Source of the DNA: Marinoscillum pacificum
GTDB lineage: Bacteria; Bacteroidota; Bacteroidia; Cytophagales; Cyclobacteriaceae
Direction of reading: 5' to 3'
Length of the DNA stretch: 64,000 bases
NCBI RefSeq assembly: GCF_024714495.1
Contig: NZ_JAMZMJ010000010.1
Coordinates: forward strand, 124,001 to 188,000
Positions within the stretch are counted from its first letter, which is position 1. Each line of letters starts with the position of its first letter. Under the pieces are notes generated by a model. That model worked only from the letters and a program-made list of their open reading frames with translations. It did no database searches and was not told the origin of the DNA. Of this stretch, positions 18,815-28,951 are shown piece by piece. A program made the position numbers and the translations under genes.

Positions 18815-18940
18815 GACTTGCTACTTAAGTGAAAAAAAACGCCGTTCAAACACAATTACATTCTTTTTACTCAGATGTTGCCAATATGTTATGTCTCGAC
18901 GACTGAAATTTATTTAATTTGCCACGAATTTTTAAGAGAT

Positions 18941-19990
18941 ATGATTAGAGTTGTCATTGTGGGCCTGGGTAATTGTTCAAGTTCATTCATTCAGGGAATA
19001 GAATTTTACAAAAACGAGCAAGAAACCAAGGGTTACGTAAGAAGGGAAATTGGTAACTACCTAATAAAAGACGTAAATGTTGTTGGAGCAATCGATGTAG
19101 ACAAACGTCTCATTGGCAAAGATGTTTCTGAAGCAATTTTTGCTGGAAGTAACACAGCTGAGAAATTTACAGATGTTCCTAATTATGGAGTAGAAGTAGT
19201 TAAAGGGCCAGTATTAGATGGTGTTGCTCCGCATATGCATAACTCCTTTCAGGTAGATGACAACCAACAACCAGTTGACGTAGCGGCATATCTTAAAGAA
19301 GTCGAGGCAGAATTTGTAATATGTTACTTACCTGTGGGTAGTGAAAAGGCTGCGAAATTCTACGCAGAAGAAGCATTGAAGGCAGGAGTAGGCTTTATCA
19401 ATGCAATCCCAGTATTTATTTGTTCTACCCCTGAGTGGAGCAACAAATTCAAGGAAGCAGGACTCGTTTGTGCTGGTGATGATATCAAATCTCAGTTTGG
19501 TGCTACCTACCTAAACAGAGTTTTAGTAGAAAGCTTAATGTACAGAGGATTCAATATCGACAATTTGTATCAACTAAATGTTGGTGGAAATACCGACTTT
19601 GAAAACATGATTGATGAGTCTAGACTTCAATCTAAACGTATCTCCAAAACATCAGCCGTATCCACTTTATTTAAAGAAGGTGAAGCGCCTGCATTGAGAA
19701 TAGGACCTAGTGACTATGTTCCTCACCTGAAAGATGCCAAAATCTGTTACATCAATGTAAATGGAACTCAATTTGGCAACCAGAAATTTGAGTTAGAACT
19801 AAAACTTAAAGTTGAGGATAGTCCCAATAGTGCTGGTGTAATGCTAGATGTAGTGAGATTAGCCAAAGTAGCGAAAGACAAAGGACTGTCAGGAAACATT
19901 CCTGTAGTATCTGCATTCGGATTTAAATCTCCAGCTGATAAATTCAGCGAAACTGATATCTTAAGAAAGATTGACGACTTCCTTTCTTAA
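18941..19990 (+). CDS. ino1: Inositol-3-phosphate (myo-inositol-1-phosphate) synthase
   Basis: 349 residues from the ATG at 18941. The frame is open upstream to 18875, but MIRVVIVGLGNCSSSFIQG is the natural start of the NAD-binding domain, so I use 18941. The enzyme isomerises glucose-6-phosphate to inositol phosphate, the first committed step to inositol lipids. The length fits the short prokaryotic/actinobacterial type. Family segments seen are GAIDVDKRLIGKD, CYLPVGSEKAA, GDDIKSQFGATYLNR and the lysine-rich region around SRLQSKRISKT. It converges on the serine palmitoyltransferase gene with a shared hairpin terminator and begins the putative inositol-sphingolipid locus. Confidence 0.92.
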   Translation: MIRVVIVGLGNCSSSFIQGIEFYKNEQETKGYVRREIGNYLIKDVNVVGAIDVDKRLIGKDVSEAIFAGSNTAEKFTDVPNYGVEVVKGPVLDGVAPHMHNSFQVDDNQQPVDVAAYLKEVEAEFVICYLPVGSEKAAKFYAEEALKAGVGFINAIPVFICSTPEWSNKFKEAGLVCAGDDIKSQFGATYLNRVLVESLMYRGFNIDNLYQLNVGGNTDFENMIDESRLQSKRISKTSAVSTLFKEGEAPALRIGPSDYVPHLKDAKICYINVNGTQFGNQKFELELKLKVEDSPNSAGVMLDVVRLAKVAKDKGLSGNIPVVSAFGFKSPADKFSETDILRKIDDFLS

Positions 19991-20010
19991 GTTGCTGTGC
20001 GCAACTTAAG
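19986..20010. terminator. Shared hairpin between ino1 and the serine palmitoyltransferase gene
   Basis: CTTAAGTTGC and GCAACTTAAG form a perfect 10-bp stem with a 5-base loop. The hairpin contains the stop codons of both convergent genes and is followed by ATTTT on the forward strand. It probably ends transcription in both directions. Confidence 0.7.
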
Positions 20011-21199
20011 ATTTTAATGGAATTTCTAATCTTTTGTATTCAGCATAAATTTTATGAATAGCCTCATCAATTTGCTCCTTTGAGTGAGTTGCCATGAGGC
20101 TAAATCGTATAAGTGTATCTTCAGGAGCTACTGCTGGAGAGATAATTGGATTGACAAAAACACCTTTTTCTAGAAGACTTGTAGTCAATTGAAAAGTCTT
20201 CATGTAATCACGAACATAAATAGGAATGATCGGAGACTCGGACGCTCCTGTATCGAACCCTAAGTCGCTTAAACTCTTCTGAGCATAGTGTGTATTCTCC
20301 CATAGCTTCAATCTGTGTGAATCATCTGACTCTATGATATCCAAAGCAGCCAAAGCAGCAGCACAAGATGGAGGCGTAATGCTTGCACTAAAAATCATTG
20401 ATCTTGAATGATGCTTCAAGAAATTAATGGTGTCACTATCACTAGCAATAAATCCGCCCAAAGACGCTAAAGATTTACTGAATGTACCTCCAATCAAATC
20501 GACCTTATCAGTAAGGCCAAAATGTGAAGGAGTTCCCGCGCCATGATCACCAATTACGCCCACAGCATGCGCACAGTCTGACATAACTACAGCTTCGTAT
20601 TTATCAGCTAGAGCGACTATTTCTGGAAGCCTGGCTAAATCACCTTCCATACTAAAGATACCATCTACTACAATCAGTTTAAAAGCATCTTTCGGACAAC
20701 GTTGGAGTTTCTTCTCCAACGACTCCATGTCATTATGTCTAAACTTGAGCTTATTTGCAAGAGATAATCTAGCACCTTCGATAATAGAAGCATGAACAAA
20801 CTCGTCCATGATGATAAAGTCATTTCGAGTAGTGATACAAGGAATAACACCCAGATTAACTTGAAAACCTGTACTGTACATCAGGACAGCTTCTTTCCCT
20901 AAAAACTTAGCAAGCCTATCTTCTAGTTCTTCATGGATATCTAACGTACCATTTAAGAAACGTGAACCTGCACAGCCAGCACCATACTTACTCATTGCCG
21001 CTCTTCCAGCCTCTACAACCTTAGGATGATTGGTAAGACCTAAATAACTGTTAGAGCCAAACATCAAAACATCCTTACCATTCACTTTTACGATGGTACC
21101 TTGTTCTGATTCAATTTTTCTAAAAAAAGGATAATAGCCTAGAGCTTTTACACGCTGTGGCTCCGTATATTGATTGGTTCGTTCCCGTAATCTACTCAT
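20006..21199 (-). CDS. spt: Serine palmitoyltransferase-type alpha-oxoamine synthase
   Basis: 397 residues from the ATG at 21199; an in-frame GTG at 21223 is possible, but the ATG start (MSRLRERTNQYTEPQRV) fits the usual N-terminus of Bacteroidota serine palmitoyltransferases. This PLP enzyme condenses serine with a long-chain acyl thioester to 3-ketosphinganine. The PLP lysine is in GGTFSKSLASLGG (about K242), the stacking His in DEFVHASII and the Asp/His of SDCAHAVG. FGSNSYLGLT and GCAGSRFLNGTLDIH match the serine-palmitoyltransferase branch rather than BioF or Kbl, and the sphingolipid-like neighbours support that. A related amino-acid specificity (glycine, alanine) cannot be excluded. Confidence 0.88.
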   Translation of the reverse strand: MSRLRERTNQYTEPQRVKALGYYPFFRKIESEQGTIVKVNGKDVLMFGSNSYLGLTNHPKVVEAGRAAMSKYGAGCAGSRFLNGTLDIHEELEDRLAKFLGKEAVLMYSTGFQVNLGVIPCITTRNDFIIMDEFVHASIIEGARLSLANKLKFRHNDMESLEKKLQRCPKDAFKLIVVDGIFSMEGDLARLPEIVALADKYEAVVMSDCAHAVGVIGDHGAGTPSHFGLTDKVDLIGGTFSKSLASLGGFIASDSDTINFLKHHSRSMIFSASITPPSCAAALAALDIIESDDSHRLKLWENTHYAQKSLSDLGFDTGASESPIIPIYVRDYMKTFQLTTSLLEKGVFVNPIISPAVAPEDTLIRFSLMATHSKEQIDEAIHKIYAEYKRLEIPLKS

Positions 21200-21298
21200 A
21201 CTTATATAAGTGGCAATTCCCACGTCTTCCTCCCCTACAGCTTAACCGAAGAAATCCACAAAACAGAAAATTAATTTGCAAATAAACATTAAATAAAC

Positions 21299-22033
21299 TC
21301 AAATATTAAGATTCAAAGAGTTCTTTAAATCTTCTGGATTGTCAACATCATTCCAAACACTTCCTACAACATCTACAGTAGTTGCTTCTTGGTCGTTAAT
21401 TAATTGACTAACCATATTCGATATGGTGTATTTCTTTTGATCAAAACACAATTTCAAAGTTTGAAATACTTGAGGCTTTAAAAAAAAAAGTCCAGTATCG
21501 TATCTATTATATACCTCAATCATCTTGCCTATTGATTGGATATGTCCTGCATCGTCCACCAAAACTCTAGTTACATCTTCAATATCGATATGCGAATTTT
21601 GTTCAGACGGAACATCTACCGCTAAACAGAGATGTTTATTCACTTTTCGGTTTTCAATTGCTTGTTGAAAAGCTGGTATAAAACCCTGATCAAACACATG
21701 ATCACCCATTGTAAGAAAAAATCCTTCTGATTTCTGTGACTTAATCCAATCCTCAGTGACACTCACTGAAAACCCATTTTCCAAATCATACCTTTCATTA
21801 TGAACTGCATCTATAAGCACATGATGCTTACCACGCAACTCTACTAACTTTTCACGAATAGGGTCTGGATTATGGCCCGTGACCACACAAAACTCTTTAC
21901 AGCCATTTTGCTTAAAGAGCATAATGTGTCGTTCCAAAAGAGAGATACCGTTAATTTCTAATAATGATTTAGGCTTACCTGTGTCTAGACGACTGTTTTT
22001 TCCAGCAGCAAGGATGACGCACTGATTGTTCAT
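21299..22033 (-). CDS. Nucleotidyltransferase, candidate CTP:inositol-1-phosphate cytidylyltransferase
   Basis: 244 residues with a single GT-A-type nucleotidyltransferase fold: the signature VILAAGKNSRLDTGKPKSL, the acidic GDHVFDQGF (metal site) and VDDAGHIQSIGK. The family uses CTP or another NTP to activate a phosphorylated alcohol such as phosphocholine, a sugar phosphate or inositol-1-phosphate. In archaea and some bacteria, an N-terminal domain like this fused to a CDP-alcohol phosphotransferase makes CDP-inositol. Here ino1 and a CDP-alcohol phosphotransferase are both near, which makes CDP-inositol the likeliest product (inference). It shares an orientation with the serine palmitoyltransferase gene, about 100 bases downstream of it. 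A good promoter sits almost at its start. Confidence 0.72.
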   Translation of the reverse strand: MNNQCVILAAGKNSRLDTGKPKSLLEINGISLLERHIMLFKQNGCKEFCVVTGHNPDPIREKLVELRGKHHVLIDAVHNERYDLENGFSVSVTEDWIKSQKSEGFFLTMGDHVFDQGFIPAFQQAIENRKVNKHLCLAVDVPSEQNSHIDIEDVTRVLVDDAGHIQSIGKMIEVYNRYDTGLFFLKPQVFQTLKLCFDQKKYTISNMVSQLINDQEATTVDVVGSVWNDVDNPEDLKNSLNLNI

Positions 22034-22120: not shown

Positions 22121-23242
22121 ATGAATTTTCAAATTTCAGAAGTCACCTCAAAATCTGATCTGAAAGCATTTATAAAATTCCCTTTCAAGCTATACAAGGG
22201 AGTATCTTCATATGTTCCTCCTTTGCTAAGTTTTGAACTTAGCACTCTGGACCCTAAGAAAAACCCAGCTTTTGAGCAGGCTAATGCCAAGTATTGGGTT
22301 GTTAAAAAGGACAAAGAGATTGTTGGCAGAATAGCAGGAATCTTATTACATCAAGAATTCGAGGAGAAGAAGTTAGTTCGTTTTGGATGGGTAGACTTTA
22401 TTGATGATAAAGAAGTTTTCACTTTACTCATGGATGCAGTCATTGAATGGGGGAAAAATCAAGGTGCCCAAAGCATGCATGGGCCTATGGGATTCACGGA
22501 TTTGGATTTTGAGGGAGCCTTAATTGAAGGCTTTGAACACACTGCTACACAGGCTACGATATACAATGCTCCCTACTATCAAAAACATTATGAAGATTTT
22601 GGATTTGAGAAAGCTGTAGACTGGATAGAAGGAAGAGGCAATATTCCAGGCAAAACTTCAAAAAAACTGGATCGAATAGCTTCTATTTGCGAAAGTAGAT
22701 TCAACCTGAAAGCTGTTAAATTCAAAAAAAACAAGGACATTAAACAATATGCTCCTGCCGTTTTTAACCTACTCAATAAATCATATAGTCATTTGTATGG
22801 CTACTATCCGTTATCTTCAAAACAGGTCGACTATTACATCAAACAATATTTTGATTTTATTAAGAAAGAGTTCATTAGCATAATAGTTAATGACCAACAT
22901 GAAGTTGTCGGAATGGCTATTGCCCTTCCCTCCATTTCGGAGGCATTAAAAAAAGCTAATGGTCATCTCTTTCCCTTTGGCTTTATTCACATTTTAAAAG
23001 ACTTTAATAAAAACACCTTGATGGATCTTTTCCTTATAGGTGTTGATCCTGAATATCAAAAACTAGGTGCTCATGCTATTATATTTAATGACATCCTTTC
23101 CAATTTTATTAAGTTAGGCGTCAATCAAATTGCGACAGGGCCGATGCTAGAAACTAATAACGGTGTCATGAATTTATGGCATGAATTTGATGCCGAGGCA
23201 ACTGGCACATTAAGGAGACGGTGTTACATCAAGAATATTTAA
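22121..23242 (+). CDS. GNAT-like acyltransferase, candidate bacterial ceramide synthase
   Basis: 373 residues. The middle and C-terminal parts have a GNAT-like character (residues about 240-365: IIVNDQHEVVGMAIALPS, FLIGVDPEYQKLGAHAII). A strong central segment begins at about residue 121 (GPMGFTDLDFEGALIEGFE) and continues with IYNAPYYQKHYEDFGFEKA. This pattern recalls the roughly 370-380-residue proteins that include the bacterial ceramide synthase of Caulobacter, which N-acylates (keto)sphinganine; I am comparing from memory. Position supports it: the serine palmitoyltransferase gene is close by, and a reductase, dehydratase, ketosynthase and ACP follow on the same strand, 11 bases or less apart. 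It could instead be another N-acyltransferase. Confidence 0.65.
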   Translation: MNFQISEVTSKSDLKAFIKFPFKLYKGVSSYVPPLLSFELSTLDPKKNPAFEQANAKYWVVKKDKEIVGRIAGILLHQEFEEKKLVRFGWVDFIDDKEVFTLLMDAVIEWGKNQGAQSMHGPMGFTDLDFEGALIEGFEHTATQATIYNAPYYQKHYEDFGFEKAVDWIEGRGNIPGKTSKKLDRIASICESRFNLKAVKFKKNKDIKQYAPAVFNLLNKSYSHLYGYYPLSSKQVDYYIKQYFDFIKKEFISIIVNDQHEVVGMAIALPSISEALKKANGHLFPFGFIHILKDFNKNTLMDLFLIGVDPEYQKLGAHAIIFNDILSNFIKLGVNQIATGPMLETNNGVMNLWHEFDAEATGTLRRRCYIKNI

Positions 23243-23253
23243 CTCATTCACAT

Positions 23254-24015
23254 ATGATAAAAAGAGCCTTGATTTTAGGCGGTTCAAGTGGTATAGGAAA
23301 AGCTACAGCAAAAAAGGTCGCCGCATCTTTTGATGAAATCATTATCGTTCATAGAGACAGGAAACAAGGAGTTTCCGAATTACATCAATTCACTGATGAA
23401 ATTTCATCAACCTACAATTGCACTTTTAAAACTTTCAATATTGACGCGACTGAGAAAGAAAAAGCTTTAGAGGTAGTAGGCAATGACACAGAACCTTTTC
23501 AATTGGTCCTGCATGCGATAACGAGAGGAAATCTTGGCAGCCTTGACATCACCAGTGATAAACCATTGAGAAGTGATGATCTAAAGCTAACAATGGATGC
23601 CATGTGCTTTAATGTACAAATGTGGAATGAAATCCTGGTCTCTTCTAAACTATTAACTTCAGAGAGTAGATTCATCACTCTAACATCAGAAGGAAGTACA
23701 AGATCATGGCCTGGCTATGGCGCGGTAGGTATGGCCAAATCATCACTCGAAACACTCACAAAATATTTGGCAGTGGAAATGAGCTCACACGGAATACGAT
23801 ACAATTGTATCCATGCTGGTGTGACAGATACCCCTTCATTGAGATTAATCCCTTCCTATAATGAATTGGTAGATTTTACAAAAAAGAGAAACCCTTATAA
23901 GCGACTTACTAAACCAGAGGATGTAGCGAACGCCATTTATTTATTAATTCAACCCGAAGCCAGCTGGATTAATGGTGCTGTTATTCATGTAGATGGAGGG
24001 GAACACCTTGTATAA
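23254..24015 (+). CDS. Short-chain dehydrogenase, FabL/FabI-like enoyl-ACP reductase candidate
   Basis: 253 residues from the ATG at 23254 (an earlier in-frame start would overlap the upstream gene and add a meaningless extension). The cofactor motif GGSSGIGKATAKK is clear. The catalytic pair is spaced Y-x6-K (YGAVGMAKSS), the spacing of enoyl-ACP reductases FabI and FabL, not Y-x3-K as in FabG. The end, INGAVIHVDGGEHLV, is also like FabL. Probable role: the last reduction in a dedicated acyl-chain extension. An alternative is reduction of 3-ketosphinganine or 3-ketoceramide, a step the locus otherwise lacks. It is directly followed by the dehydratase gene. Confidence 0.72.
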   Translation: MIKRALILGGSSGIGKATAKKVAASFDEIIIVHRDRKQGVSELHQFTDEISSTYNCTFKTFNIDATEKEKALEVVGNDTEPFQLVLHAITRGNLGSLDITSDKPLRSDDLKLTMDAMCFNVQMWNEILVSSKLLTSESRFITLTSEGSTRSWPGYGAVGMAKSSLETLTKYLAVEMSSHGIRYNCIHAGVTDTPSLRLIPSYNELVDFTKKRNPYKRLTKPEDVANAIYLLIQPEASWINGAVIHVDGGEHLV

Positions 24016-24016
24016 A

Positions 24017-24475
24017 ATGAAAGAGAAAATACCACAAATCCTTGAACTACTCCCCTACAGTGATCCATTCTTATTTGTGGATGAAATCAAAGAATTGGAT
24101 GAGTCCAGAATAATTGGCACGTATACCATTAAAAAAGATGAGCACTATTTCAGAGGACATTTTAAAGAGAAACCAATTGTTCCTGGAGTGATCATTACGG
24201 AAATCATGGCTCAAATAGGCTTGGTTTCATTTGGAATAGGATTGTTATTAAAACAATTTGATGAGCACCCTGAAAAAGGGAATAAAGAAATTCTACCAGT
24301 CTTCAGCAATTTTCACGTAGAGTTTGTGAATGCCGTTGGTCCAGGAGCTAAACTTACCATCGAGTCAAAAAAGGTCTTTTTTAGACTAGGTAAATTATTT
24401 TGCAAAGTAAAGTGTATGCACGAGGAGACCATTGTTGCTAGAGGTGAACTTGGTGGAGTGTTAATTAGTAAATAA
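24017..24475 (+). CDS. FabZ/FabA-like (hotdog) 3-hydroxyacyl-ACP dehydratase
   Basis: 152 residues from the ATG at 24017, one base past the stop of the reductase gene. The core has FRGHFKEKPIVPGVIITE then IMAQ, with the catalytic His (GHF) and Glu (ITEIMAQ) both present. The conserved HRxPFLLVD near the N-terminus is changed to YSDPFLFVDEI; that first His is not catalytic. It should dehydrate 3-hydroxyacyl-ACP in the small fatty-acid module; its ketosynthase starts at once after its stop. A different acyl specificity from the housekeeping FabZ is likely. Confidence 0.8.
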   Translation: MKEKIPQILELLPYSDPFLFVDEIKELDESRIIGTYTIKKDEHYFRGHFKEKPIVPGVIITEIMAQIGLVSFGIGLLLKQFDEHPEKGNKEILPVFSNFHVEFVNAVGPGAKLTIESKKVFFRLGKLFCKVKCMHEETIVARGELGGVLISK

Positions 24476-25756
24476 ATGAATCAAAAAAGAGTAGTAATTA
24501 CTGGGATGGGAGTAGTTGCTCCAAACGGAGTTGGTATTTCCGAATTTTCAGAAGCGTTATATAGAGGGAAATCAGGAATTAAATTCCAGGAGGACTCAGC
24601 CAATCAAAACTACAGATGTCAGGTGGCAGGAGTACCGACAGTTTCCGAAGAATACATTGATAAATATTTCCCCAATATTTACAAAGAAGTAATAAAAAAC
24701 AATGCCATCAAGTACGGGTGTTTAGCAGGCCTTGAAGCGTGGGCAAATGCGGGACTTTCACCTAGCAAAGAAAGAAAATCAAGATGGGGAATGGTATTTG
24801 GAGCTGGCGCTCCTGGTTTAGATGAATTTATCATTGACCCAATTGAGAAGCTAAATATTGGAAAGTCTAGAACGGTTGGCACCACTCTGGTTCCACAATC
24901 TATGACTAGCGGCACTGGGGCATACCTAAATCAACTTTTAGGATTAGGAGGCCCCGTAATCAGCAATTCATCTGCCTGCAGTACAGGGAGCGAAGCGATT
25001 TTAATAGGTTATGAACAAATACAATTAGGCAAAGCAGATATAATGCTGTGCGGAAGCACAGAAGGAATAGGTAGATTTATTTGGGGAGCGTTTGACACCA
25101 TGAGAATTCTCGTACCCAACTCAAATGACGCTCCAGAAAAAGCAAGCAAACCTATGAGTCAGAAATCATCTGGATTTGTACCGTCTGGAGGTGCTGGTAC
25201 TCTTATTCTGGAAACTTTGGAATCTGCACAAGCTAGAGGTGCTAACATACTAGCTGAATTAGTAGGTGTATCTCAAAACTGTGGTGGTCAGCGTAATGGA
25301 GGCTCTATGACTGCTCCAAATTCTGAAGCAGTTATTGAATGTATAAAATCTGCCATTAATCATGCCAATATTGATGCTTCCGAAATTGACTTAATATCTG
25401 GTCATCTTACTTCTACAATGGCAGATCCAATTGAAATCGAAAACTGGGTAACAGCACTAAATTTACCTCCTGATAAACTACCAGCAATCAATACTGTGAA
25501 GTCCATGATAGGTCACGCTATCTCAGCCGCTGGATCTATTGAATCTGTAGCTTGCATCATTCAGTTAACTGAAGGTTTCATTCATAAAAACATCAACATT
25601 GATGCCGATACCATACATGAGAAGATTAAGAATATTTACCCAATAGAGAAAATACCATTAGAAACTGAGCGAAGAGAAATTCAAACAATAATTAAGTCTA
25701 ATTTTGGATTCGGTGATGTAAATTGCTCGCTAATTTTCAGCAAATTCAAGCCGTAA
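24476..25756 (+). CDS. Beta-ketoacyl-ACP synthase (FabF/KAS II type)
   Basis: 426 residues, normal for a KAS II. It begins RVVITGMGVVAPNGVGI. The catalytic triad is intact: Cys in SNSSACSTGSEAI, the first His in SGHLTSTMADPIE and the second His in VKSMIGHAISAAG, with a late SNFGFGDVNCSL in place of the usual SFGFGGxN. It extends acyl-ACP with malonyl-ACP. The gene abuts the dehydratase and is followed 2 bases later by the acyl carrier protein, so a dedicated chain-building module is likely. The unusual GHLTST and GDVNC sequences suggest a divergent, specialised enzyme rather than the housekeeping FabF. Confidence 0.87.
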   Translation: MNQKRVVITGMGVVAPNGVGISEFSEALYRGKSGIKFQEDSANQNYRCQVAGVPTVSEEYIDKYFPNIYKEVIKNNAIKYGCLAGLEAWANAGLSPSKERKSRWGMVFGAGAPGLDEFIIDPIEKLNIGKSRTVGTTLVPQSMTSGTGAYLNQLLGLGGPVISNSSACSTGSEAILIGYEQIQLGKADIMLCGSTEGIGRFIWGAFDTMRILVPNSNDAPEKASKPMSQKSSGFVPSGGAGTLILETLESAQARGANILAELVGVSQNCGGQRNGGSMTAPNSEAVIECIKSAINHANIDASEIDLISGHLTSTMADPIEIENWVTALNLPPDKLPAINTVKSMIGHAISAAGSIESVACIIQLTEGFIHKNINIDADTIHEKIKNIYPIEKIPLETERREIQTIIKSNFGFGDVNCSLIFSKFKP

Positions 25757-25758
25757 TT

Positions 25759-26013
25759 ATGGAATTAAAAGAAATACAGGAGAAACTCACACCAATTATC
25801 AGTAAGTACTTACCTGATGAAGTAAAAGTAGAAGAAATCACTCCAGAAAAGGATATTCTGAAAGATTTACAAATTAACTCCGCTTATTTAATTGACATCA
25901 TTATTGCAATAGAAGAAGAATTTGATATTGCAATAGATGATGACTCCATTGCCAAGATAAACACCGTTCAGGAAGCAGTGGACGTTATTGTCAGCAAAAT
26001 AAATGAAAAGTAG
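25759..26013 (+). CDS. Acyl carrier protein of the small fatty-acid module
   Basis: 84 residues from the ATG at 25759 (the longer frame from 25723 would run into the ketosynthase gene). It is acidic and helical, with the phosphopantetheine attachment Ser expected in LQINSAYLIDIII, in place of the usual GADSLDTVE motif. The rest, EEEFDIAIDDDSIAKI, suits an ACP. It probably carries the intermediates of the reductase, dehydratase and ketosynthase encoded before it, or delivers the acyl chain to the ceramide synthase candidate. In Caulobacter a dedicated ACP lies in the sphingolipid locus, a parallel arrangement. Confidence 0.85.
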   Translation: MELKEIQEKLTPIISKYLPDEVKVEEITPEKDILKDLQINSAYLIDIIIAIEEEFDIAIDDDSIAKINTVQEAVDVIVSKINEK

Positions 26014-26031
26014 AAGGTGATTACTTTCTAC
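26010..26031. terminator. Bidirectional hairpin between ACP and delta-4 desaturase-like genes
   Basis: GTAGAAGGT and ACTTTCTAC pair over 9 bp (one G-U) with the loop GATT. It overlaps the stop codons of both convergent genes, and a short T-rich run follows on the reverse strand. Confidence 0.6.
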
Positions 26032-26954
26032 CTCTTCACCCGCGAATTCAACCCTATATTTTTCTGAGTAAGAAAGTGATAAATCACCTTCGTCCAGGAA
26101 TTGTAAGAATGCAATCCTTCATAATGCTTGCTGGCTTTTTCTCTCAAGACTGGCAATCTAGAACCTGGAACATTTGGAAAATCATGATGCTCATTGTGGT
26201 AGCCTACGTTGAAAACCAACTTATTTAATGGCCCATAATAGGAATATGTCTCCTGACCAGGCTTAGTAACATAGTGCTCAGACACAAAGTGACCACCCAA
26301 GGGATGAAGACCAGTTGCTAATATCACAGATAAAGCCATGTATAGCACACCTATCCAACCTACAAAATTCAGATACGTTAAAACAAAAATGATTTGGACC
26401 ACTAAGTTGACAAACTCCCATTTATTGGGTTTTCTTGGATAAACCATCAATGGCCGTAAAGCGTAAAAGAGAATCTGAAAAAACATCCAAATAAATTTCC
26501 CTACAAAACCTCTAAATAGCTTCGCTTCCAATCGTGTAGGAAGATCTGTATCAATTTTATCTTCTCCTTGTTTCCAATGGTGTTCAAGGTGATATGCTTT
26601 AAAAGCCATTGCAAATGGAAAAACCAAGGGCAGATTGACCAAAATGGCTAGCCAATTGTTTTTCGCTTCTGATTCAAAAGCAAGGTTATGGGATAATTCA
26701 TGAATGGCTAAAACCAGGATATGCACCAATGTAGTACCTACTAAAAACAACACTGCGATGAACCCCCAAATATTAGACGGCACATAAAATGACACTGCTA
26801 ACTGTAACAGTGAGACAAGCAAAACTTTGTACTTCAGACCAGCATCTATACCCATTAACTCCTTCACCTCAGGCACTTCTTTCAAAATCTGCTTTCTACG
26901 CTGAAAATGAGGCTCTCGTCCTTCCTCCCAAATGAAATCTTTAGTAGCTCCCAT
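26028..26954 (-). CDS. Sphingolipid delta-4 desaturase-like membrane protein (DEGS type)
   Basis: 308 residues. From memory it resembles eukaryotic dihydroceramide delta-4 desaturases (DEGS1) over nearly its full length. The N-terminal part DFIWEEGREPHFQRRKQIL echoes the DEGS start (DFEW..., RRREIL). The His boxes are HELSH (85-89), HLEHH (122-126) and HNEHH (253-257); the last is followed by DFPNVPGSRLP, with SYYGPLNKLVFNVGY before it, as in DEGS. Four to six membrane segments are expected. It would introduce the 4,5-double bond into a ceramide backbone, changing a dihydroceramide to a ceramide. Most bacterial sphingolipids are saturated, so this is notable. A -7 box lies 4 bases upstream of the ATG. 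Confidence 0.85.
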   Translation of the reverse strand: MGATKDFIWEEGREPHFQRRKQILKEVPEVKELMGIDAGLKYKVLLVSLLQLAVSFYVPSNIWGFIAVLFLVGTTLVHILVLAIHELSHNLAFESEAKNNWLAILVNLPLVFPFAMAFKAYHLEHHWKQGEDKIDTDLPTRLEAKLFRGFVGKFIWMFFQILFYALRPLMVYPRKPNKWEFVNLVVQIIFVLTYLNFVGWIGVLYMALSVILATGLHPLGGHFVSEHYVTKPGQETYSYYGPLNKLVFNVGYHNEHHDFPNVPGSRLPVLREKASKHYEGLHSYNSWTKVIYHFLTQKNIGLNSRVKR

Positions 26955-27117: not shown

Positions 27118-27990
27118 ATGCTTAGATACAAAGCCGATATTAAGACCTTAGTCTATCTAACTTTCACCTCATCCCTGATGCTGGTATTATTCTTTTATCA
27201 TGAGCAAATCCAATCTGCGATTTTGTGGATACTTTATGGTATAGAATTGGTTATGGCTATTACTGTGGGAGTTATTGTTCATAATCATCGCCATGTAAGC
27301 ATCTGGAAAAACAAAACCTTGAATAATCTCACGGACTGCTGGTTGACAGTTCTATACGGGTTCCCTGTATTTGGATGGATCCCCACTCATCTTCAGAACC
27401 ACCATACACATACCAACAAGGAACCAGATTATACGAAGACCTACGCATTCTCTGAAAAGAATAACTTATGGACTATCATTTACTATCCGATGTATAGTAG
27501 TGGGGTTCAACTGAAAGCTATCAGACGCTATCTTTCTGATTTGAGAACAAAAAATCGAGAAAAATTCATTGAACATATTTTCCAGATCATATCATTGGTT
27601 CTATTCGTTGTAGCTGCATTCATTATTGACTGGAAAGCGGCTATTCTCTTCGTGATAATCCCTCAACAAATCTCGCTCAACAGTGTATTAGTATTTAACT
27701 ACGTACAGCATATTCATGCAGATGAAGAATCAGAATACAATCACTCCAGAAATATAGAAGGCCCACTAAATACCTTCCTATTCAACAATGGACTGCATAC
27801 TGCGCATCACATAAAACCTCATCTACACTGGAGTCGTTTACCTGAATTTCATGCTGAAATCAGAGACAAAATCGATCCTAAATTGAATGAAAAAAGTCTG
27901 ATCTGGTATTTAATCAGGCAATACTTATTATCACCATTTAACTCTAAATGGTCTACTGTATCCATGCGCCTTACGCGTGAAAAAGTCTGA
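27118..27990 (+). CDS. Membrane fatty-acid desaturase/hydroxylase (copy 1)
   Basis: 290 residues with about four membrane helices and the three His clusters of membrane di-iron desaturases (PF00487-like): HNHRH (about 57-61), HLQNHHTHT, and a late NNGLHTAHH, with extra histidines HIHADE and YNHSRN between. The reaction is uncertain: either a double bond or a hydroxyl in a lipid chain, such as the 4-hydroxy group of phytosphingosine or the 2-hydroxy group of the N-acyl chain. It is followed 4 bases later by a paralogue. The two differ in the residues around the His boxes, so they may act on different positions or chains. Confidence 0.8.
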   Translation: MLRYKADIKTLVYLTFTSSLMLVLFFYHEQIQSAILWILYGIELVMAITVGVIVHNHRHVSIWKNKTLNNLTDCWLTVLYGFPVFGWIPTHLQNHHTHTNKEPDYTKTYAFSEKNNLWTIIYYPMYSSGVQLKAIRRYLSDLRTKNREKFIEHIFQIISLVLFVVAAFIIDWKAAILFVIIPQQISLNSVLVFNYVQHIHADEESEYNHSRNIEGPLNTFLFNNGLHTAHHIKPHLHWSRLPEFHAEIRDKIDPKLNEKSLIWYLIRQYLLSPFNSKWSTVSMRLTREKV

Positions 27991-27994
27991 TAAT

Positions 27995-28951
27995 ATGTTG
28001 AAATTAAAATATAAATCAGATCGCAAAACACTTGCAGCTGTTACCCTGTACTTTGTCAGCACAGGACTGATCTGGTACTATTTCCCTCAATTGCACATAG
28101 CACTTCAGATCTTTGCAGTTATTTTTTTATGTATGCTCTCCTTTATATGTGCTGTGATCGTTCATAACACGGTCCATGTACCTATATTTAGAAGTAAGCG
28201 AGCAAACAAGGTGTTCCAAATCGTACTTTCTATGACTTATGGATATCCTGTAAGTCCGTTTGTGATAGGTCATAACCTAAGTCATCATCAACACACAGGC
28301 AAAGATCAAGACATTGCCAGAACGGATAAGTTAAGGTTTAAGTGGAATTTTCTCAATCAAGCATTGTTCTTCTTTGTAACCTCTGACAGCATCATGAAAT
28401 CTGAATGGCTATGGATCAAAAAAATGTGGAAAGAAGATCGAAGAAGCTGGGTTATTCAATATTTCTTGGAACTGATTGGTGTAGGCTTAATTAAGATTCC
28501 TCTTTTATTTTTCAATTGGCCAGTGACGTTATTAACTATTTGGCTACCGCACTTATGGGCTCAGTGGGGCATCGTAGGAACTAACTTTTGGCAACATGAT
28601 GGCTGTGATGTTTATCATGAATATAATCACTCCAGAAATTTTACCAACAAGCTGTTAAACTTTCTGGTATTCAACAATGGGTACCATGGTTTGCATCACA
28701 ATAATGCAACGCTACACTGGAGTGAACTACCAGAAATATATGAGAAAGAATTTGCTCCAAACATTCATCCAAATCTAAATCGAAACTCTTTATTCATGTA
28801 TTTGTGGGAATCTTGCGGGTGGCCTGGAAAAAGACTAGACTATTTGGGAAACCCAGTCGTTTTAGATAAAAACAAACAGGAAGATAGCCTGGAGTGGATC
28901 AACCACAAGGATTACAAAAAGAACATTGAGCACTTAGGAGCCGAAGTTTAA
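27995..28951 (+). CDS. Membrane fatty-acid desaturase/hydroxylase (copy 2)
   Basis: 318 residues from the ATG at 27995 (a GTG at 27977 would run into the upstream gene). It is paralogous to the gene before it: matching His clusters are HNTVH, HNLSHHQHT and NNGYHGLHH, and the EYNHSRN and THLHWSELPE-type stretches recur in both. It has a longer C-terminal tail (about 40 residues, rich in charge). It belongs to the same membrane di-iron family and has the same uncertainty between desaturation and hydroxylation. It precedes the CDP-alcohol phosphotransferase by 7 bases, so it is probably in the same operon. Confidence 0.8.
   Translation: MLKLKYKSDRKTLAAVTLYFVSTGLIWYYFPQLHIALQIFAVIFLCMLSFICAVIVHNTVHVPIFRSKRANKVFQIVLSMTYGYPVSPFVIGHNLSHHQHTGKDQDIARTDKLRFKWNFLNQALFFFVTSDSIMKSEWLWIKKMWKEDRRSWVIQYFLELIGVGLIKIPLLFFNWPVTLLTIWLPHLWAQWGIVGTNFWQHDGCDVYHEYNHSRNFTNKLLNFLVFNNGYHGLHHNNATLHWSELPEIYEKEFAPNIHPNLNRNSLFMYLWESCGWPGKRLDYLGNPVVLDKNKQEDSLEWINHKDYKKNIEHLGAEV

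Follow-up and report, generated by a model that had tools for sequence, protein, structure and literature searches.

The gene studied here lies in a 64,000-nucleotide stretch of DNA from Marinoscillum pacificum, which is called the window below. It stands among the following genes:

18875..19990, + strand: myo-inositol-1-phosphate synthase (MIPS) homologue
20006..21223, - strand: serine palmitoyltransferase (SPT), NF047600 at 647.3 bits (curated cut-off 640), Ala at the SulA-diagnostic position
21299..22033, - strand: nucleotidyltransferase, inositol-1-phosphate cytidylyltransferase-like, NF041135 at E 2e-37, under a cut-off that is set for a two-domain protein
22121..23242, + strand: CerS (bCerS homologue), predicted tandem GNAT N-acyltransferase, complete open reading frame with an ATG start, 373 aa
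23254..24015, + strand: SDR resembling enoyl-ACP reductase, with Y-x6-K; likely ATG at 23254, possible start at 23221
23993..24475, + strand: FabZ-like 3-hydroxyacyl-ACP dehydratase; translation may start later, at 24017
24476..25756, + strand: ketoacyl synthase, catalytic Cys-His-His residues kept
25759..26013, + strand: acyl carrier protein (ACP), 84 aa, attachment Ser in an NSA motif
26028..26954, - strand: membrane desaturase of the DES family (sphingolipid Delta4-desaturase family), PF08557 and PF00487
28959..29888, + strand: CDP-alcohol phosphatidyltransferase, likely serving headgroup transfer

A reading made from the sequence alone had proposed the gene at 22121..23242 as a bacterial ceramide synthase on the strength of two stretches, GPMGFTDLDFEGALIEGFE and IYNAPYYQKHYEDFGFEKA, and of a length of roughly 370 residues; both stretches are indeed found in the translation, which is 373 aa long. 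That this is a chance reading frame is excluded by the existence of open, full-length homologues in relatives (tblastn, identity up to 79%) and by 10 residues that are invariant in an alignment of 35 homologues from several phyla. The gene also heads, as proposed, a run of five genes (CerS, SDR, FabZ-like dehydratase, ketoacyl synthase and ACP), all on the + strand from 22121 to 26013. The further claim that it lies beside the SPT gene holds for closeness but not for adjacency: the nucleotidyltransferase gene at 21299..22033 intervenes, on the - strand like SPT and divergent from CerS, so that SPT is the second upstream neighbour of CerS and not the first.

Profile searches assign CerS in the most general terms. 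Pfam returns generic GNAT alone (PF00583, 27.8 bits, cut-off 20.7), no NCBIfam model matches, and a sequence search of the PDB finds no solved relative at a meaningful E-value. An AlphaFold model built with 39 sequences (pLDDT 91.3, pTM 0.89) is a tandem GNAT whose best structural neighbour is 7q3a (Z 22.7, rmsd 3.5, 304 residues); tandem GNAT neighbours overall score Z 20-22.7, among them a glucosamine N-acetyltransferase at Z 22.2, and N-myristoyltransferases score about 15. The PF00583 match and the model together bear out the proposed GNAT-like type. We are confident of this predicted fold, although likeness of fold does not by itself establish function.

Homology is more telling. E. coli YghO aligns with CerS over residues 1-373 at 29% identity (tblastn, E 2e-36), and the legend of Fig. 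9 in PMC9386255 places yghO (ECD_02850) and Caulobacter CC_1154 among the genes required for dihydroceramide; CC_1154 is named CerS in PMC11324152. In a plasmid collection tblastn found 44 records, 39 of which cover at least 80% of the query. The surroundings were read for 12 of the 44, one of them without annotation, leaving 11 for comparison. In E. coli, Rahnella, Pseudomonas and Klebsiella the homologue is accompanied by a fatty acyl-AMP ligase, an NAD-dependent epimerase/dehydratase, an ACP and an SPT-like aminotransferase; Sphingomonas has a partial cluster (ACP, SPT-like aminotransferase and an NAD(P)H-binding gene), and Aureispira an SPT-like aminotransferase and an oxidoreductase. Around the Diaphorobacter and Roseomonas homologues are LptF/LptG permeases, CDP-alcohol transferases and nucleotidyltransferases. 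None of these surrounds the homologues of B. finegoldii, Chloroflexota and Vescimonas; on the Chloroflexota plasmid (L024, 43% identity) and in Vescimonas (L123, 37%) no SPT lies within about 7-8 kb. A complete set of ceramide genes, yghO included, occurs together with LptF/LptG and glc genes in a record deposited as a plasmid of E. coli PN43 (L023).

Within Bacteroides, family members are 39-44% identical to CerS over the full length (41% in B. finegoldii). PMC10865984 gives the B. fragilis CerS as BF9343_4218 and CerR as BF9343_4240. Among seven Bacteroides/Phocaeicola genomes, six have one bCerS homologue and one has two, and all seven have a single strong CerR homologue. In B. salyersiae the bCerS and CerR homologues are separated by 24 kb, which fits the 22 gene numbers between BF9343_4218 and BF9343_4240. 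Copy number and distance to CerR thus lead us to infer that the aligned Bacteroides gene is the published B. fragilis CerS. In a tree of 42 rows, CerS falls in a supported group of 12 rows from its own bacterial family (100/98), which is nested in a larger group with Bacteroides. Set apart by a long branch is a clan of six weaker matches from relatives; these (L015-L020) are GNAT relatives of about 390 aa, 26-30% identical to CerS and widespread among relatives, whether or not these have SPT.

The association with SPT was counted in two samples. Among 59 relatives (strong SPT above 580 bits, bCerS homologue above 145 bits), strong SPT matches occur in 10 genomes at 13 places. All 10 have a bCerS homologue, against 4 of the 49 others, and it lies within 3 kb of SPT at 12 of the 13 places, the exception (G010) being a fragmented assembly. 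In a class sample of 295 genomes (SPT at E <=1e-150, bCerS homologue at E <=1e-36), 24 of the 25 SPT genomes and 50 of the 270 others have a homologue (Fisher 3e-15, a value inflated by shared descent), and the two genes are within 3 kb of each other at 17 of 26 places. The 50 genomes with a homologue and no SPT imply that the family reaches beyond ceramide synthesis, or that some copies are orphaned, and with a family that wide our assignment leans on linkage together with similarity. Full-length homology to YghO and to the Bacteroides genes, linkage and co-occurrence with SPT and the confident GNAT fold all point the same way: the window gene very probably encodes a bacterial ceramide synthase of tandem-GNAT type that would act with the neighbouring SPT, as the sequence-only reading had suggested. 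The N-acylation step which that reading added to the pathway is thereby supported at the level of genes, SPT and a predicted CerS being encoded at one locus.

The four genes downstream of CerS raise a separate question. We compared 12 CerS loci of the same bacterial family (the window, L106-L115 and L117). Six, including L106, have the order SPT, a gene of about 318 aa, CerS, ketoacyl synthase and ACP, the 318-aa gene being a member of the NAD-dependent epimerase family in the one copy tested. In five (the window, L107, L111, L112 and L117) an enoyl-reductase-like SDR and a FabZ-like dehydratase stand between CerS and the ketoacyl synthase, and L109 has CerS without the cassette. L106 is a second SPT-CerS locus of the same genome (G000:C11:1141081-1144367), with a CerS 49% identical to the first; its order is SPT, epimerase-family gene, CerS, ketoacyl synthase, ACP and a borderline match to phosphopantetheinyl transferase, and no dehydratase or reductase of the kind in the window cassette was found there. 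The Cys and both His residues are kept in all 12 ketoacyl synthase copies (L112 has two), the Y-x6-K motif is common to all five SDRs and the NSA motif to all 11 ACPs. We take these motifs to have their usual meanings, Y-x6-K presumably marking the enoyl-reductase type; the best NCBIfam match of the SDR at 23254..24015 is FabL, with a score under its cut-off. An identity as ketoreductase was dropped, as the five SDR copies have Y-x6-K and not Y-x3-K, and a Cys-less ketoacyl synthase of the chain-length-factor kind is refuted by the alignment.

A ketoacyl synthase and an ACP thus follow CerS in 11 of the 12 loci, which suggests an acyl supply that serves sphingolipids only; gene order alone leads us, with moderate confidence, to see in the cassette an acyl supply reserved for ceramide. 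Alternatively, CerS may be a ceramide synthase that uses ordinary acyl-CoA, the four downstream genes forming a separate lipid or secondary-metabolite cassette in the same operon. This has a substantial chance of being correct, if somewhat less than an even one, and is compatible with the ceramide-synthase half of our explanation. It agrees with the statement in PMC11324152 that Bacteroidetes SPTs use acyl-CoA, and with the SPT-CerS loci outside the bacterial family (L116, L191, L192 and L193), where SPT and CerS are joined by an epimerase-family or CerR-like gene but not by such a cassette. It accounts less readily for the recurrence of ketoacyl synthase and ACP after CerS throughout the family, the second locus of this very genome included. 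The titles and abstract openings of the open-access papers searched yielded no prior report of a ketoacyl synthase/ACP cassette in ceramide loci of Bacteroidota.

A CerS-family enzyme might instead serve the sulfonolipid route, with capnine or 3-ketocapnine in place of a sphingoid base as the amine that it acylates. According to PMC9304779, SulA is marked by Lys281, 30 residues past the PLP lysine Lys251, where SPT has Ala. This position is Ala at all 13 loci compared (the window and 12 others) and Lys in 10 of 11 SulA-type contrast genes; in the eleventh, from G046, simple counting gives Ala, with Lys one residue later. An assignment of 20006..21223 as the cysteate acyltransferase SulA, and of the region as a sulfonolipid locus, is ruled out by this Ala; the best solved match of the gene product is serine palmitoyltransferase 8guh/3a2b. 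A SulA-type gene with Lys does occur in the same genome (G000:C11:646099-647346), and in G165, G257 and G284 (loci L180, L181 and L183), three members of a single genus that lack SPT, a bCerS homologue adjoins a SulA-type (Lys) gene with which it is convergent. Both observations could favour acylation of capnine. However, both bCerS genes of our genome lie beside Ala-type SPTs and its SulA-type gene lies elsewhere, all three neighbouring pairs are convergent and from one genus, and SulA-type genes are present in 257 of the 295 class genomes against 197 for the bCerS superfamily, so that at least 60 SulA genomes manage without a member of it. We consider acylation of capnine by the window enzyme quite improbable. 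As a general sulfonolipid N-acyltransferase the superfamily is likewise unsupported across the class, the three neighbour cases notwithstanding; the homologues at L180, L181 and L183 are candidates for N-acylation in sulfonolipid synthesis, a step to which the available text of PMC11211663 assigns no enzyme.

Least probable of all is that CerS is a lipid N-acyltransferase for another amine (an amino acid, a polyamine or a peptide) and a mere passenger near SPT, as the homologues in SPT-less genomes and the generic GNAT annotation might allow, since the linkage with SPT survives differing gene orders and strands across five families of relatives (f1, f11, f31, f40 and f55) and in Proteobacteria.

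The ceramide synthase reading also has to be seen against the remaining genes of the locus. No CerR homologue was found within the window by tblastn with four queries; at the second locus an NAD-dependent epimerase family gene (L106:10281-11234) lies between SPT and CerS and may, by family and position only, take the place of CerR. The desaturase at 26028..26954 scores 46.8 bits with PF08557 (cut-off 23) and 99.6 with FA_desaturase PF00487 (cut-off 29.7), and a PDB sequence search with it returned nothing. In the class sample the DES domain occurs in 25 of 295 genomes, that is in 11 of the 25 SPT genomes and 14 of the 270 others (Fisher 3e-7); the 14 genomes with the domain and no SPT, the relative G021 among them, show that the link is not strict. 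No prior report of bacterial DES-type desaturases was found in the open-access titles and abstract openings searched. Two overlapping genes of the fatty-acid-desaturase family (27118..27990 and 27977..28951, both +) lie between the DES-family gene and the CDP-alcohol transferase gene.

In the mechanism that we propose, CerS, as a soluble or peripheral-membrane enzyme, would take a fatty acyl group off its thioester carrier and attach it to the amine of the long-chain base that the neighbouring SPT makes; the product would be (3-oxo)dihydroceramide. The enoyl-reductase-like SDR, FabZ-like dehydratase, ketoacyl synthase and ACP would build and hold the acyl chain for SPT and/or CerS, and the inositol-phosphate genes and the DES-family desaturase would finish the lipid. 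One might speculate further, though the odds are slightly against it, that the supply line of this bacterial family is closed: the ketoacyl synthase, dehydratase and enoyl reductase would extend the chain on their own ACP and pass it to SPT and/or CerS, and the DES-family protein would add a eukaryote-like double bond or hydroxyl. Were this so, sphingolipids would be made by an ACP-dependent route in a phylum for which SPTs are described as users of acyl-CoA, and the partners would differ from AcpR/AasR. The ceramide core (SPT and CerS) is complete on paper beside inositol headgroup genes at one locus, in a Bacteroidota genome that carries two SPT-CerS loci. The locus supplies concrete genes for the question of the acyl donor in Bacteroidota ceramide synthesis and a concrete gene for that of DES-type desaturation or hydroxylation of bacterial sphingoid bases, and the bCerS homologues do the same for the role of this N-acyltransferase family in SPT-less genomes.

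Compared with known systems, CerS resembles Caulobacter CC_1154 / CCNA_01212 and E. coli YghO in being of GNAT type and linked to SPT; the homology was measured via YghO, and the tie of CCNA_01212 to CerS runs only through YghO and the gene list in the Fig. 9 legend of PMC9386255. Unlike that system, the window is without AasR or CerR, and its ACP is paired with a ketoacyl synthase and not with an acyl-ACP synthetase. The likeness to the Bacteroides CerS lies in the identity to those Bacteroidaceae genes that fit BF9343_4218 by copy number and CerR distance, whereas the Bacteroides gene is unlinked from SPT and in B. finegoldii adjoins topoisomerase IV subunit B and coaD. With the AcpR/AasR acyl supply of Rhodobacteria the window shares a dedicated ACP encoded with ceramide genes, but it has ketoacyl synthase, dehydratase and enoyl-reductase-like genes and no acyl-ACP synthetase, and the ACP motif is NSA in place of the ES/DS of AcpR. 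MIPS, an NTP transferase and a CDP-alcohol phosphatidyltransferase recall the alternative, as yet unproven, inositol-lipid cluster that PMC9246714 describes for B. vulgatus and Prevotella; the window differs in mixing in SPT and CerS and in having no HAD hydrolase among the genes examined. An operon headed by CerS and holding its own fatty-acid-building genes and carrier protein was less expected. CerS is a member of a known enzyme family in a lineage-specific setting, and the setting is the more interesting part.
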